Shown here: piece after piece, positions 8,417 to 21,367 of the stretch | Layout: the number at the start of each line of letters is the position of its first letter | How positions within the stretch are numbered: the stretch's first letter is position 1 | NCBI GenBank assembly: GCA_038874355.1 | Contig: JAVZCO010000001.1 | Coordinates: 1 to 64,000 of the forward strand | DNA from: Candidatus Pacearchaeota archaeon | Lineage (GTDB): Archaea; Nanobdellota; Nanobdellia; Pacearchaeales; GW2011-AR1 | DNA: 64,000 nucleotides | Direction of reading: 5' to 3' | Notes under the pieces: generated by a model | The model's database searches: none | Told to the model about the DNA's origin: nothing | The model's input: only the letters and a program-made list of their open reading frames with translations | Program-made: the position numbers and the translations under genes

Positions 8417-8611
8417 CTATTTAGGAAGCCACTCTAATTTAGAAACATATCCAATTATACTTTTCGAATTTTCTCTTAAATTAAAAAGCCATTCTTTATA
8501 AAAAAAGATAAGTTTTTCCATATCTTTATCTCTTAAAGATAAATTTTTTTCTACAGAGATAAATAAAGCTCCAAAAATTAGAAAAAGTAATATAATAAAT
8601 ATTAATCTCAT
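8417..8611 (-). CDS. Small membrane protein, paralogue of the neighbouring gene
   Basis: A 64-residue protein with an N-terminal hydrophobic helix (about residues 3-19) and a short C-terminal domain. The C-terminus NSKSIIGYVSKLEWLP resembles NTKTIIGNAIRLNWGP of the gene immediately upstream, so the two look like tandem paralogues. One nucleotide separates them, and they are presumably cotranscribed. No known family was recognised. Confidence 0.65.
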   Translation of the reverse strand: MRLIFIILLFLIFGALFISVEKNLSLRDKDMEKLIFFYKEWLFNLRENSKSIIGYVSKLEWLPK

Positions 8612-8612
8612 T

Positions 8613-8897
8613 TTATACTCTTGGAGGACCCCAATTAAGTCTTATAGCATTTCCTATTATTGTCTTTGTGTTATCTATAACATTCCCTACCCATTTAATA
8701 TAAGCTTTTCCTGCCATAATCATTCCATCCATAGATTTAACATCTATATTATTTGTTTTAACAACAGAATAAATACTCAAATACAAAAATAACAAAGCAA
8801 GTATTATTAAAGTTATAAAAAACTTATTATGCGCATGTTTTATTTTTATTATTAAATAAATAAAAACTATAGCTATTAATATTATTATCCATACCAT
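8613..8897 (-). CDS. Small two-helix membrane protein
   Basis: A 94-residue protein with two hydrophobic segments (about residues 2-17 and 26-46) and a C-terminal domain of about 45 residues ending in a Trp-Gly-Pro-Pro motif. The order hydrophobic segment, short linker, then a (Y/F)xxW...N(T/S)K(T/S)IIG block is shared with the next gene. The function is unknown. The start codon lies within 40 nt of AT-rich TATA-like sequence near 8925-8938. Confidence 0.65.
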   Translation of the reverse strand: MVWIIILIAIVFIYLIIKIKHAHNKFFITLIILALLFLYLSIYSVVKTNNIDVKSMDGMIMAGKAYIKWVGNVIDNTKTIIGNAIRLNWGPPRV

Positions 8898-8964: not shown

Positions 8965-9037
8965 AGCCCCATGGTCTAGCGGTCAAGGATACAGCTCTCT
9001 GGAAGCTGTGACCCAGGTTCAAATCCTGGTGGGGCTA
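8965..9037 (+). tRNA. tRNA-Gln (anticodon CTG)
   Basis: A 73-nt cloverleaf with acceptor AGCCCCA/TGGGGCT, discriminator A, an anticodon stem CAGCT/AGCTG with loop CTCTGGA (anticodon CTG), and T arm CCAGG-TTCAAAT-CCTGG. No intron is present. A TATA-like TTTATATATTTT lies about 30 nt upstream. The 3-prime end is only 9 nt before the start codon of the next gene. Confidence 0.93.
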
Positions 9038-9046
9038 TTTTTAAAA

Positions 9047-9564
9047 ATGAAAAAGATAATAAAATTAATAAAATCAGGAGCAATTTTTATTTATCCAACA
9101 GATACAATATATGGTATAGGATGTAATGCATTAAACAAAAAATCTGTTGAAAAAATAAAAAGAATTAAGAAAAGAGATAAAAATAAACCTTTATCTATTA
9201 TAGCTCCATCAAAAAATTGGATTTAAGAAATACGAAAGCTAATAAAAAAATAGTTGAAAAATATCTTCCTGGAAAATATACTCTTATTTTAAAGAAAAAA
9301 AGAAAAAATTTTCTTAAACACGTTTCCCCAACAGAATTTATTGGAGTAAGGATTCCAAATAACAATTTTTGTAAGATTATTCAATTATCAAAAGTCCCTT
9401 TTATAACAACTTCTGTAAATATATCTGGAAAACCTTTTGCAAAATCTTTAAAAGAAATAAACAAAGAGATATTAAATAAAGTAGATGTTATAATAGATGC
9501 AGGAAAATTATCTGGGAAACCTTCAATAATAGTTTTTTATGATGGGAAAGAATTAAAAAGATAA
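9047..9564 (+). CDS. L-threonylcarbamoyladenylate synthase (Sua5/YrdC/TsaC), interrupted by one frameshift
   Basis: The protein makes threonylcarbamoyl-AMP for the t6A modification at position 37 of ANN-decoding tRNAs. The first frame (from ATG 9047) carries [10 protein letters not shown] and a Lys/Arg-rich loop ending in KPLSII, both hallmarks of the YrdC fold. It stops at 9226. The rest ([27 protein letters not shown]) continues in the -1 frame from about 9217 to 9564. Together they form one YrdC domain of about 172 residues without the Sua5 C-terminal domain. A missing T in the run at about 9222-9225 would restore one frame. The in-frame heptamer A AAA AAT just upstream of the stop is an alternative recoding site. 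An upstream in-frame ATG at 9008 lies inside the tRNA and is rejected. Confidence 0.85.
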
Positions 9565-13604: not shown

Positions 13605-14915
13605 ATGCCATATGATATAATTATAGGGAGAGACGAATACGATAAAAAAATATTTGGAAAAAAAGGTTTGGTTTTTTTAGGAAAAAGTTATGTAAAAATG
13701 GAACAATATACTTCTTTAAGTAATCCTATTTATTTAGATGTTGCAAGAAGCCATGTTATATTAATTGCTGGAAAAAGGGGGTCTGGGAAATCTTATACTT
13801 TAGGGGTTATAGCAGAAGAACTTTCTCTCTTACCAGAAGAAGAAAGAGTAAATATTGCATCTTTAATTTTTGATACGATGGGTATTTTTTGGACAATGAA
13901 ATACGAAAATGAAAAAGATAAAGAATTATTAAGAGAATGGAATTCAAAACCACAGTCAATTCCTGTAAAAATTTTTGTCCCTTATGGATACTTTCAAGAT
14001 TATGAAAAAAGAGAAATCCCCATAGATGAAAAATTTGCTTTAAGCGTTTCTGATCTTAATGCCGAAGATTGGATAATAACTTTTGGTTTGAATATTATAG
14101 ATCCTGTAGCTATCTTAATAGAAAGAGTAATAACAAAAATCAAAGAAGAAAAAGAGAATTTCTTTATAGAAGATATAATAAAAGAAATACAAAATTCAAA
14201 TGCTAATGAAAATACAAAAAATATAGCTATAGGTTTATTCGAAGCTGCATCATCATGGAAAATTTTTTCTAATAAAAAACAAAAAACCACTTTTATAAAT
14301 GAATTAATAAAAAGTGGAGTTACAACTATACTTGATTTAAGTATGTATAGTTCGACAGCTGCTTTTAATGTTAGAGCTCTAGTTATAAGTTTAATATGCA
14401 GAAAATTATTTAATGAAAGAATGCTTGCAAGAAAGAAAGAAGAAATTCTTGCTCTTCAACATGGCCAGGACTATCTTGCTTTCAAACAAGAAAGAGAAAT
14501 GCCTCTCGTATGGATTTTCTTAGATGAAGTTCACGAATTTTTACCTAATGAAGGAAAAACGCCTGCCACAGAGAGCTTAATACAGTTATTAAGAGAAGGC
14601 AGACAACCTGGTATTTCTTTAGTGATGGCAACACAACAACCAGGTGCTTTAGCAAGAGATGCTACAACACAAGCAGATATAATTATAAGTCATAGAGTAA
14701 CATCAGCTGTAGATATAAAAGCATTAAATGAAATAATGCAATCTTATCTTCTAGAAAGTATAAAAAGATATATGGACGAATTACCCTCTCTCAAAGGATC
14801 TGCAATAATTTTAGATGATAATAGTGAAAGAATATATCCATTTAGAGTACATCCACGTTATACATGGCATGGAGGAGAAGCCCCAACATCAATAAAAATC
14901 GAAAAAAGAATTTAA
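13605..14915 (+). CDS. HerA-like (DUF87) P-loop ATPase
   Basis: About 436 residues. The Walker A AGKRGSGKSYTLG lies near residues 53-65, Walker B VWIFLDEVHEFLP near 302-314, and the sensor segment VMATQQPGALARDATTQADIIISHRV follows. This order is typical of HerA/VirB4/FtsK-type hexameric motors. The N-terminal IIIGRDEYDKKIFGKKG is a small beta domain. HerA usually works with NurA nuclease and Mre11-Rad50 in end resection, but none of these is adjacent. The start at 13605 is preferred over 13536 because the TATA box ATTTATAAAT lies at 13563-13572, between them. It could equally be a membrane-associated translocation motor. Confidence 0.85.
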   Translation: MPYDIIIGRDEYDKKIFGKKGLVFLGKSYVKMEQYTSLSNPIYLDVARSHVILIAGKRGSGKSYTLGVIAEELSLLPEEERVNIASLIFDTMGIFWTMKYENEKDKELLREWNSKPQSIPVKIFVPYGYFQDYEKREIPIDEKFALSVSDLNAEDWIITFGLNIIDPVAILIERVITKIKEEKENFFIEDIIKEIQNSNANENTKNIAIGLFEAASSWKIFSNKKQKTTFINELIKSGVTTILDLSMYSSTAAFNVRALVISLICRKLFNERMLARKKEEILALQHGQDYLAFKQEREMPLVWIFLDEVHEFLPNEGKTPATESLIQLLREGRQPGISLVMATQQPGALARDATTQADIIISHRVTSAVDIKALNEIMQSYLLESIKRYMDELPSLKGSAIILDDNSERIYPFRVHPRYTWHGGEAPTSIKIEKRI

Positions 14916-17708: not shown

Positions 17709-17963
17709 ATGTCAAAAGCATTAGGTTATATTTTAATGTTAATTGGAGTGATTATTTTATTTTCAGGGCTTATTTTAAAGAATTCTCAAATGAATATTCC
17801 TCTTATAAATAATATTAATATAAAATTTATTCCGGTTGTTGGCATAATATTAGTTATAATAGGATTTATTCTAACAAATTATTCTTCATCAAAAAACAAA
17901 AAACATCTTCCAATATATGACAAAACAGGGAAAAAAATTGTTGGTTATAGAGAAAGCAAATAA
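17709..17963 (+). CDS. Small two-helix membrane protein
   Basis: An 84-residue protein with hydrophobic segments at about residues 6-23 and 37-56, a short loop between them, and a basic, Ser/Lys-rich tail ending in IYDKTGKKIVGYRES. No signal peptidase site or Cys pair is seen and no family was recognised. It is the first gene of a 3.7-kb block made only of membrane proteins. It starts about 19 nt after the predicted transcript start. Confidence 0.7.
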   Translation: MSKALGYILMLIGVIILFSGLILKNSQMNIPLINNINIKFIPVVGIILVIIGFILTNYSSSKNKKHLPIYDKTGKKIVGYRESK

Positions 17964-18076: not shown

Positions 18077-18859
18077 CTATAATCTTCTATGCAAACGTTG
18101 TAATTGATGTTCTAAATCTCTTATTGTATCTTCTACTATTCTTGAAGGATTTGGTAGGCTTCTTAATCTTGATATTCTTTCTTCTAATTCTGCTATTTGT
18201 AATCTTATTCTTGCTCTTCTTGCTGCTCTCGCTTGAGTTATTCCAAAATATTCATGTATTCTCTCATCAAAAATCAAATTAATTAAAACTATTATAGCAC
18301 CTATTCCATAAATCCAATTCATATCAGAAGAAATTCTTTCTGCTCTATTCAACCATAAAACTAAAAAAACTACAGAAAAAACTAACCACCCGGCTCTTCT
18401 ACCAATAGGGCTTGAAATTGAATTATGTATAAAAAAGAAATAAATCAGAATGGGTAAAAAAATAGCTAATGAAATTCCTAATGTTCCAGAGGGCATTAAA
18501 ATGTATGAAAAAAATCCTTCTTTACTCATGTATCTAACTGCAAATATAGAAACAATAATGGAAATTAATGCGGCAACCCCTTCTTTATTACGAAACATCT
18601 CTACTTTAATTAAAGAAAGATAAAATATTGCATATGCTAAAATTAAAAATAATATTTTAGCCCAAAAAAATTCGTCAAAATTCCCGGTTCCCAATAAAGT
18701 TTGAAAAAAAGGACCAAAAATATCTTTTATCCATTGAATTATTGTTTCTGAAGCTCCTGAAAAAAATTCTTTATCTTTATACCATTGAGCAGAAACTAAA
18801 CTTGTTATCGCCATAATTATCACTAAACTTAAAAATATTAAATCTAATTTTTTCTTCAT
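18077..18859 (-). CDS. Signal-peptide, multi-helix membrane protein with basic coiled-coil tail
   Basis: The 260-residue protein has a signal peptide ending SLVSAQ (cleavage expected before Gln25) and a short outside loop. Five or six hydrophobic helices follow (about residues 66-84, 95-113, 124-146, 158-170, 183-198), then a C-terminal Arg-rich helix (from about 210) with heptad-like LEERISRLRSL. GVAALISIIVSI aligns with GIGGLISVIVGI of the next gene. No transporter motif is visible. The start is leaderless from a box at about 18880-18889. The function is unknown. Confidence 0.75.
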   Translation of the reverse strand: MKKKLDLIFLSLVIIMAITSLVSAQWYKDKEFFSGASETIIQWIKDIFGPFFQTLLGTGNFDEFFWAKILFLILAYAIFYLSLIKVEMFRNKEGVAALISIIVSIFAVRYMSKEGFFSYILMPSGTLGISLAIFLPILIYFFFIHNSISSPIGRRAGWLVFSVVFLVLWLNRAERISSDMNWIYGIGAIIVLINLIFDERIHEYFGITQARAARRARIRLQIAELEERISRLRSLPNPSRIVEDTIRDLEHQLQRLHRRL

Positions 18860-19058
18860 ATTTTTACTATGTTTTTTATGCTTAAAAATATTTGGTTTAG
18901 TAAAGTTAATAAAAAATAAAATGATATTATAAAAATTATTCCTAGAAATTAAGTAATAATATAAATAAGCAAAATTATTTTATATTTTTATCATTCTTTG
19001 GTTTTAATGTATATACTATTATAAAAATATTTATAAACCTCTTTTTCTTTAAAAAAAT

Positions 19059-19832
19059 ATGAAAAAAATAAGTAAGATTTTTACATTATTACTTATATCA
19101 TTATTTTTAATAACAATTTTAATTAATGTTGTAAGTGCTCAAACAGCAGAAGATAAAATAAAATCTTTTTTTTCTAATATTAATAAACAAACTTCTGGAT
19201 TATCGAATGATGTTAAAACAGGAATTGCTAAAATTCTCCTTACTATATTAATCATATTATTAGTTTATTCTATAATCAGTTTTATTCCTATAATAAATAC
19301 AAATCCTGGGATAGGAGGATTGATATCTGTAATAGTTGGAATATTATCTTTTATTTTTGTGAAACCAGAAGATATTCTTGGAATATTAGTAACTTACGAA
19401 GCAATGGGTGTTATTTTAACAACATTTTTTCCTCTTGTTATAATTATTATTTTTACAGTGAGATTAAGAGAAGCAAATGCGGTAATGGCTACTTTTGTTA
19501 ATAAAATGATTATAGCTGGTTTTGCAGTTTATGTTGCTGTTAAATGGTTCACTCTTCCTGTTAATGCTGTAATGACATGGGTATATCCTATAACTCTTAT
19601 TGTATCTATTATGTGGTTATTTTTAGAAAGATGGATTTATTGGAAAATTATTGGTTCTGCTTTATCAGGAAATACTGAAGAATTTAAAAAACAAACAATT
19701 GTTCTTAACGAAATGAAAATAAGAGAATTGCAAGAAAAACTTGATAAAGCAGTAACAGAAAAAGAAAGAGAAGAATTGCAGAAAAGAATAGATCAACTTA
19801 AAAAAAATAATAAAAAATTAAAAAAAAGTTAA
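19059..19832 (+). CDS. Signal-peptide, multi-helix membrane protein with charged coiled-coil tail
   Basis: The 257-residue protein parallels its divergent neighbour. The signal peptide ends NVVSAQ, an amphipathic loop is followed by helices at about residues 58-80, 88-103, 117-134, 151-165 and 172-193, and the C-terminal coiled coil is Lys/Glu-rich (from about 215). The core GIGGLISVIVGILSF is the best-matching part. The TATA box TTTATAAA at 19030-19037 is 26 nt before the ATG, so the gene is leaderless and has its own promoter. Confidence 0.75.
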   Translation: MKKISKIFTLLLISLFLITILINVVSAQTAEDKIKSFFSNINKQTSGLSNDVKTGIAKILLTILIILLVYSIISFIPIINTNPGIGGLISVIVGILSFIFVKPEDILGILVTYEAMGVILTTFFPLVIIIIFTVRLREANAVMATFVNKMIIAGFAVYVAVKWFTLPVNAVMTWVYPITLIVSIMWLFLERWIYWKIIGSALSGNTEEFKKQTIVLNEMKIRELQEKLDKAVTEKEREELQKRIDQLKKNNKKLKKS

Positions 19833-19988
19833 TAATATAAAATTTTAGATTTAAAACAAACTATCTCTATTATATATAATAAAATTAGTTTTTTATTTTC
19901 ATTTAAAATTTTTATTTTCTTTTTTTGTTTTATTTCTATAAAAAAATTAATAAAATAATTTTAAATACTCTTTTTTCTTAATATATTA

Positions 19989-20600
19989 ATGAAAAAATTT
20001 ATAATTTTTATATTATTTTTCTTAGCTATTAATCTCATTTATGCTCAAAAAGAGATAAATGTTACAGAGGGGTTAAAGAAAAATTTATACATTGATACAA
20101 ATAATATATCATCTGATATGTATAAAGCTTTACATAAAGAAATAAAACTTCCTTCTTCTGTTCAAGAAATTGTTAAAATTTTATTTGGATTAGAAGAAGA
20201 AAAAACAACTTTTGAAAATTTAATTATCTTATCTGTAATATGGATAGGATTTATAATTATTTTTTATATTATTATCCAATTTATATCTTTATTTGAAAAT
20301 AAAAATTTAATAAGTTTTTTAATAGCAATTATAATAACATGCTTAGTATCTATAACAGGAATAATACAATTTAGTGCTTCTTTTTTTACTTCTTTATTAA
20401 GTTTTCTAGATTTTACAAAACTTTCTTATTTAAAATTTTTTTTTATAATACTTATTCTTTTTCTTATAATTTTTATTTTTTACTCTCTCTCTGAGATAAT
20501 AAAAAATAGGATAGAAAAAGAAAAAATAAGGAGTATTGGAAGAGATATTGGAACAGAAACTGAAATAAATAAAAAGATAAGAAAGGCCAATAGTTTATAA
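19989..20600 (+). CDS. Signal-peptide, multi-helix membrane protein
   Basis: A 203-residue protein whose signal peptide ends LIYAQ. An outside domain of about 55 residues follows, then helices at about residues 76-97, 104-122 and 140-168, and a basic tail (ending about 203). The segment ENKNLISFLIAIII resembles ENKNFIRFLPYIGSLL of the convergent neighbour at 20654-21367. A TTTTAAAT box at 19959-19966 predicts a leaderless transcript. No named family was recognised. Confidence 0.72.
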   Translation: MKKFIIFILFFLAINLIYAQKEINVTEGLKKNLYIDTNNISSDMYKALHKEIKLPSSVQEIVKILFGLEEEKTTFENLIILSVIWIGFIIIFYIIIQFISLFENKNLISFLIAIIITCLVSITGIIQFSASFFTSLLSFLDFTKLSYLKFFFIILILFLIIFIFYSLSEIIKNRIEKEKIRSIGRDIGTETEINKKIRKANSL

Positions 20601-20653
20601 AATAAATTTTATTTATTTTTTTGAATTTGAATTATATATCTTAAATAGACATT

Positions 20654-21367
20654 TTAAGAAATTAATCCTTTTCCTTCTTTTATTCCTTCAATAAATTGTT
20701 CATGTTTTTCTATTTTATTTTTATTTTCTTCTTCTTCCTCTTCCTTTTTTCTTTTTTTAGAATATTTATATATAATATCTGATAAAGTTATTATGGTAAT
20801 ACATATAATTATAATCAAGAAAAGATATAAAAATCTAATAAATTTATTTTCATTTTTAAATATCAATTTTCCTAACCAAACTATAATATTATAATAAAAG
20901 TTTAATTGTGCTATTAAGATAGAAAATAATAAAGAACCAATGTAAGGTAAAAATCTTATAAAATTTTTATTTTCTTCCCCTAAGAGAGGAATTGCTTTTA
21001 AAAGATTAACCATTGTAAAAAAGATAATTATCCATAAAATAATAATTCCAATAATAGTAAAGAAATATTCAACATTCCAATTTACTCCAAAAAATATTCT
21101 AAAAGTAGTATCTGGGATTGGTTTTTGCATAAAATTATCTGTAGCATTAATAAGTTTATTCTTAAGCAAGATATTTTTCCATTCTTTTTGTAAGTATTCC
21201 CATTTATTTTTTATTGTATCTGGGAATTGTTCTATTCTTTGCATATCTTCTTCTGAAAGGGGATAATCTGAAGGTAATTCGTTTTGTGCTTTAATAAAAT
21301 TTAATTTAATAAAAAAAGCTATTAAAAGTAATAAAACTAAAGATAATCTTACAAAATTTTTCTTCAT
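20654..21367 (-). CDS. Signal-peptide, multi-helix membrane protein with acidic-basic tail
   Basis: The 237-residue protein has a signal peptide ending FIKAQ and an outside domain of about 70 residues (Trp-rich, EYLQKEWKNILLKNK). Helices follow at about residues 98-121, 135-155 and 175-198, then a tail with a Lys/Glu run. It shares the Ala-Gln cleavage site, the topology and an ENKN-(F/L)-I motif with the other members of the block. Its promoter has a TATA box at 21388-21397 and a 16-bp palindrome between that box and the start. Confidence 0.72.
   Translation of the reverse strand: MKKNFVRLSLVLLLLIAFFIKLNFIKAQNELPSDYPLSEEDMQRIEQFPDTIKNKWEYLQKEWKNILLKNKLINATDNFMQKPIPDTTFRIFFGVNWNVEYFFTIIGIIILWIIIFFTMVNLLKAIPLLGEENKNFIRFLPYIGSLLFSILIAQLNFYYNIIVWLGKLIFKNENKFIRFLYLFLIIIICITIITLSDIIYKYSKKRKKEEEEEENKNKIEKHEQFIEGIKEGKGLIS

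Follow-up and report, generated by a model that had tools for sequence, protein, structure and literature searches.

A conserved block of signal-peptide membrane proteins in Pacearchaeota, candidate accessory subunits of a type IV pilus-like machine

Four signal-peptide membrane proteins, here called A to D, are encoded side by side in the genome of a Candidatus Pacearchaeota archaeon, a tiny, uncultured and probably symbiotic organism (G000; 593 kb, about 96% complete). The stretch analysed, referred to as the window, comprises 64,000 nucleotides of this genome, and its main features are listed in Table 1. Because relatives of these proteins lie in pilus gene clusters and block genes found outside their usual slot lie at prepilin-peptidase or pilin loci, the block is read here, at about even chances, as encoding a diversified set of membrane proteins that serve as accessory subunits in an archaeal type IV pilus-like machine driven by a FlaI/TadA-type ATPase.

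Table 1. Features of the block and of the neighbouring genes considered with it (window coordinates)
Feature	Position	Strand	Remarks
Two small membrane proteins	8417..8897	-	tandem paralogues, E 5e-9
HerA-like ATPase, soluble	13605..14915	+	neighbour, judged outside the block
Companion 2-TM protein, 84 aa	17709..17963	+	conserved C-terminal motif
Protein A, 260 aa	18077..18859	-	signal peptide VSA|QW, 5 TM
TM1-TM2 hairpin motif of A, MFRNKEGVAALISIIVSI	18542..18598	-	aligns with the hairpin of the M172 family
Protein B, 257 aa	19059..19832	+	signal peptide VSA|QT, 5 TM, coiled-coil tail
TM1-TM2 hairpin motif of B, IINTNPGIGGLISVIVGI	19290..19343	+	from alignment
Protein C, 203 aa	19989..20600	+	signal peptide IYA|QK, 3 TM, charged tail
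TM1-TM2 hairpin motif of C, LFENKNLISFLIAI region	20289..20330	+	from alignments
Protein D, 237 aa	20654..21367	-	signal peptide IKA|QN, 3 TM
TM1-TM2 hairpin motif of D, GEENKNFIRFL region	20948..20983	-	from alignments

Anatomy and distribution of the block

The original prediction had described four genes at this place whose products carry signal peptides ending in A|Q, several helices and charged tails, and all of these features were confirmed, the tails being helical. The TM counts, taken beyond the signal peptide, rest on hydropathy together with AlphaFold2, and the loop charges are consistent with an N-out, C-in orientation that leaves the tails in the cytoplasm. In protein A a short outside helix follows the signal peptide and the cytoplasmic tail is a coiled coil, in protein C a helical outside segment precedes the membrane helices, and protein D has a helical outside domain of about 70 aa and a long, helical and charged tail. 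The AlphaFold2 models reached a pLDDT of 89.3 and a pTM of 0.62 for A (48-row alignment), and a pLDDT of 85.5 and a pTM of 0.65 for D (36-row alignment). A proline lies in the conserved TM3 core of the block proteins. Scored by a home-made rule and not by SignalP, signal-peptide-like N-termini occur in 90% of A/B and 92% of C/D family members, and in 15-21% of the other multi-TM proteins of related loci.

The gene order at the locus, PolB-FEN1-[block]-companion-Trm5-HerA-Dsb-RFC, is the same in the window and in many relatives, and the slot between FEN1 and Trm5 is the usual home of the block. With strands of -,+,+,-, A to D are not a single operon but a gene cluster. In the family (Pacearchaeota), 33 genomes were sampled; A/B genes are found in 17, C/D genes in 17 and the companion in 14, so that the block is present in about half of those sampled, with one to four A/B copies per block. 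A/B and C/D genes co-occur (p 1.4e-5), as do C/D genes and the companion (p 4.7e-5). The gene content and position of the block are thus conserved among relatives, which is what had been expected of a lineage-specific complex. The companion had also been assigned to the block, correctly: of the 14 genomes that have it, 13 place it beside an A/B- or C/D-family gene. Its tail, (V/I)PIYxGK..(I/V)VGYR (window 17910-17951), is nearly invariant and better conserved than its membrane part, and resembles a binding motif. The two small membrane proteins assigned to the block at the same time do not belong to it, being a separate conserved pair that is kept in tandem in L067 and L083.

Beyond the family, a related protein, 'S', occupies the same slot in other Pacearchaeota, and distant members of the class encode longer A/B-like proteins, often paired. 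These distant pairs lie near L35Ae-like and PAC2-like genes (L144, L147, L148, L150, L156 and others), in a conserved, housekeeping neighbourhood without pilus genes. A single ORF of 998 aa (L153:2720-5716) joins a distant A/B-like membrane domain, a long proline-rich linker and an apparent glycosyltransferase domain. Two further observations concern the surroundings of the block. MNT/HEPN toxin-antitoxin-like pairs are inserted in or beside it in several relatives (L037, L038, L041), and in the window the overlapping ORFs at 9008-9226 and 9217-9564 appear, by eye, to be halves of one Sua5/YrdC-like protein, a split that suggests a frameshift or an assembly error.

Kinship of the block proteins

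Proteins A and B are homologous by BLASTP (E 2e-10). C and D have no BLASTP match to each other, and their homology appears at the profile level only (hhalign, 98.7%); on this sequence evidence they are a second paralogue pair. The proposed origin of the block by duplication is supported. Within a tree built from 67 A/B proteins, protein B is a B-type paralogue, falling in a clade of 21 rows (support 97/90) that holds it together with 15 genes adjoining C/D genes, and protein A, which adjoins the 2-TM gene, is an A-type paralogue that groups with other companion-adjoining genes. The position label is clustered on this tree (0 of 500 shuffles gave a value as low), which makes A and B old paralogues and not products of a recent local duplication. 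The block proteins are long duplicated and fast-evolving.

Two motifs had been pointed out, each shared by a pair of the proteins: GxxxLISxIVxI, which A and B carry, and ENKN(L/F)I, which is present in C and D. Profile comparison, however, places both on the same TM1-TM2 hairpin, an N-terminal element that C/D and A/B have in common, and they are in fact one superfamily motif. A weak profile match at 185 kb in G000 pointed to three more proteins, M158, M163 and M172, which have five TM helices, lack signal peptides and adjoin a FlaI/TadA/CpaF-type ATPase. Also in this cluster is a large 10-TM protein that is TadC-like by position only, no Pfam or NCBIfam family matching it as such. The cluster, PRC-M163-M172-(M158)-coiled coil-ATPase-TadC-like, was found at 13 of 17 sampled loci, where homologues of the block are thus encoded within pilus ATPase clusters, and its range extends to further families in the order and class.

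The A/B profile matched those of M172, M163 and M158 at 97.3%, 95.1% and 92.9%, respectively, S at 97.4% and C/D at 96.4%, with less than 1% for the unrelated multi-TM families used as controls (A24 peptidase, S2P-like, CaCA-like and DUF457-like). These comparisons were made with curated sets and negative controls; HMMs grown iteratively from one seed at a time strayed between A/B and C/D. From these profiles, A/B, C/D, S and M158/M163/M172 are one superfamily based on a TM1-(F+xNK)-TM2 hairpin.

The four proteins had been called unlike known transporters, and searches of curated families and folds bear this out. A to D have no match in Pfam or NCBIfam, neither to a transporter or channel family nor to a known pilus component, and hmmsearch found nothing relevant among PDB sequences. 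Foldseek against the PDB gave no significant hit (best E 1.8 and 0.88), and a fold search of viral models gave none below E 0.2.

Block genes and pilus loci

Archaeal type IV pilus and Tad-like systems comprise a FlaI/TadA ATPase, a TadC/FlaJ platform, an A24 prepilin peptidase and class III pilins (PMC4858521). In G000 itself, on the same contig as the block, the prepilin peptidase and pilins occupy about 166.6-173.6 kb; the ATPase cluster lies at about 178.7-186.5 kb, with the ATPase gene at about 180.8-183.1 kb. The region of about 166.6-186.5 kb on contig C1 (L192, L143) has the appearance of a type IV pilus island, with the A24 prepilin peptidase, several class III pilin-like genes, the FlaI/TadA-type ATPase, the TadC-like 10-TM protein, the three 5-TM M proteins and a 95 aa protein that is PRC-barrel-like by eye. 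As this island lies about 145 kb from the block, the link to pili is comparative and not local.

The comparison covers several loci in which the block is found off its usual slot. In G002 the order is seven single-TM pilin-like genes, A24 (PF01478, E 8e-14), HIT, the block and EF1B. In G020 the block lies on the same side of EF1B; here A24 is on another contig, so that its adjacency is inferred. A C/D gene, a glycosyltransferase-like gene, A24 and two pilin-like genes follow one another in G009, C/D-type genes lie beside A24 or about 2 kb from it in G040 and G046, and C/D genes adjoin pilin-like genes at two loci of G041. In G228, from another family of the same class, one continuous stretch carries FEN1, Trm5, an A/B-like protein (544 aa; hhalign 97%) and, in addition to M163 and M158, both the ATPase and the TadC-like protein as well as several pilin-like genes. 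Block genes thus adjoin pilins, A24 or the pilus ATPase in G002, G009, G040, G041, G046, G228 and probably G020. In L151, A24 lies two genes from an A/B-like gene.

Pilin-like genes, called by a home-made rule, make up 15% of the genes at off-slot loci and 0.3-0.7% of those at FEN1-slot and distant control loci. If pilin or A24 neighbourhoods occupy 3-5% of the genome, four independent placements would occur by chance with a probability of roughly 1e-6 to 6e-6. G002 and G020, and likewise G040 and G046, may each represent one event. The contigs of G023 were too short to be placed. Two candidates were set aside, namely a weak C/D match beside a 10-TM SecY-like gene in G045, judged a false positive, and a 225 aa protein with five TM helices beside TadC in G360 (L201), dropped as it showed no homology to the block. 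A 2-TM protein near the latter is only weakly companion-like (82% probability over 22 columns).

Alternative explanations

In the window genome and in most genomes with the block in the FEN1 slot, block genes do not adjoin pilus genes: 31 of 33 such loci have no pilin-like or pilus gene within eight genes, and no link to pili is seen at 16 of the 18 distant loci compared at class level. Moreover, about half of the family has A24 and lacks the block, which is therefore not needed for a pilus. Such a distribution fits an accessory or lineage-specialised part of the machine, and it also fits an independent envelope complex. The block might be a lineage-specific envelope complex outside the pilus, serving as a channel, transporter or scaffold, in which case the likeness to the M proteins would reflect a common ancestor and the placements at pilus loci would be due to coincidence or shared regulation. 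The solitary position of the block in the FEN1-Trm5 slot of most genomes agrees with this, as does the L35Ae/PAC2-like neighbourhood of the often paired distant homologues, and cleaved N-termini with a proline-containing TM3 core would suit a pore. However, the off-slot copies found within the taxonomic order fall in A24/pilin neighbourhoods, the G228 locus combines A/B-like and M proteins with ATPase and pilins, and the homology to ATPase-locus proteins comes with clean controls. An independent complex has clearly less than even chances.

VirB6 proteins have a 5-TM layout with the N-terminus out and the C-terminus in. The block resembles the Ced/Ted and VirB2/VirB6 systems (PMC9905601, PMC11868833) in the succession of a signal peptide and a hairpin with a basic inner loop, which recalls TedC/VirB2 (PMC9905601), and in sharing this layout with VirB6. 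On these grounds the block could form a pore like VirB6 or CedA within a reduced type IV secretion or Ced/Ted DNA transfer system, with a VirB4-like ATPase as its motor. Among 48 A/B members, one matched TrbC, at E 0.05, which is noise level. Neither Foldseek nor sequence searches matched the block to VirB6 or to anything else in the PDB, TrbL is absent among the top families matched by A/B members, and no VirB4, CedB or HerA-clade ATPase is linked to it. A search with PF04610 (VirB6/CedA/TrbL) in six Thermoproteota genomes returned nothing usable. A pore of this kind is improbable.

It had also been suggested that the HerA-like ATPase, which lies about 3 kb from the block in an often conserved gene order and is 64-74% identical to that of relatives, powers the block as a DNA importer. 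This is very improbable, and HerA coupling is contradicted by distribution and by relocation alike: HerA is found in 50 of the 56 relatives irrespective of the block (p 0.88), remains with FEN1 and Trm5 in L059, L063 and L067, where the block is missing, and lies at 473 kb in G002, about 120 kb from the block (350-354 kb) on the same 511,056-base contig, whose FEN1-Trm5 slot (L067) is empty, whereas the companion has remained with the block.

Possible role in a pilus-like machine

The reading of A to D as accessory pilus subunits draws on their sharing loci, through their relatives, with ATPase, peptidase and pilin-like genes, and on the likeness of a multi-subunit envelope machine. Unlike the parts of archaeal type IV pili and Tad systems, neither A to D nor the companion matches any described pilus component, the block usually lies away from pilus loci, and its N-termini resemble signal peptidase I sites rather than class III pilin sites. 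In the archaellum, FlaX, FlaF and FlaG are membrane-anchored proteins that place coiled-coil or outside segments around the ATPase and platform. A to D would be analogous to them; no sequence relation was found, and A to D differ in being polytopic, with 3-5 TM helices.

If A to D serve such a machine, signal peptidase cleavage would leave their N-terminus outside and their C-terminus inside, and the 3-5 TM helices would couple the outside segment to the cytoplasm. Together with the 2-TM companion they may form a hetero-oligomer around the pilus base, with the coiled-coil tails docking them to each other or to the ATPase, and act as a stator, scaffold, collar or exit ring. Fast divergence and the variable number of A/B copies would suit a surface machine adapted to partner cells. 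A channel or a host-contact role, as first proposed, is possible for the block. The more specific idea that the new superfamily forms a hetero-oligomeric collar or pore on the Pacearchaeota pilus-like machine, evolving fast because it mediates host contact, is rather unlikely.

Significance

The molecular basis by which DPANN archaea attach to and exploit their hosts is largely unknown. The present comparison removes a misleading lead, that of HerA and DNA import, and the block probably represents new protein families associated with an already known type of machine. The family thereby provides candidate proteins that can be tested as the base or exit structure of a DPANN pilus machine.
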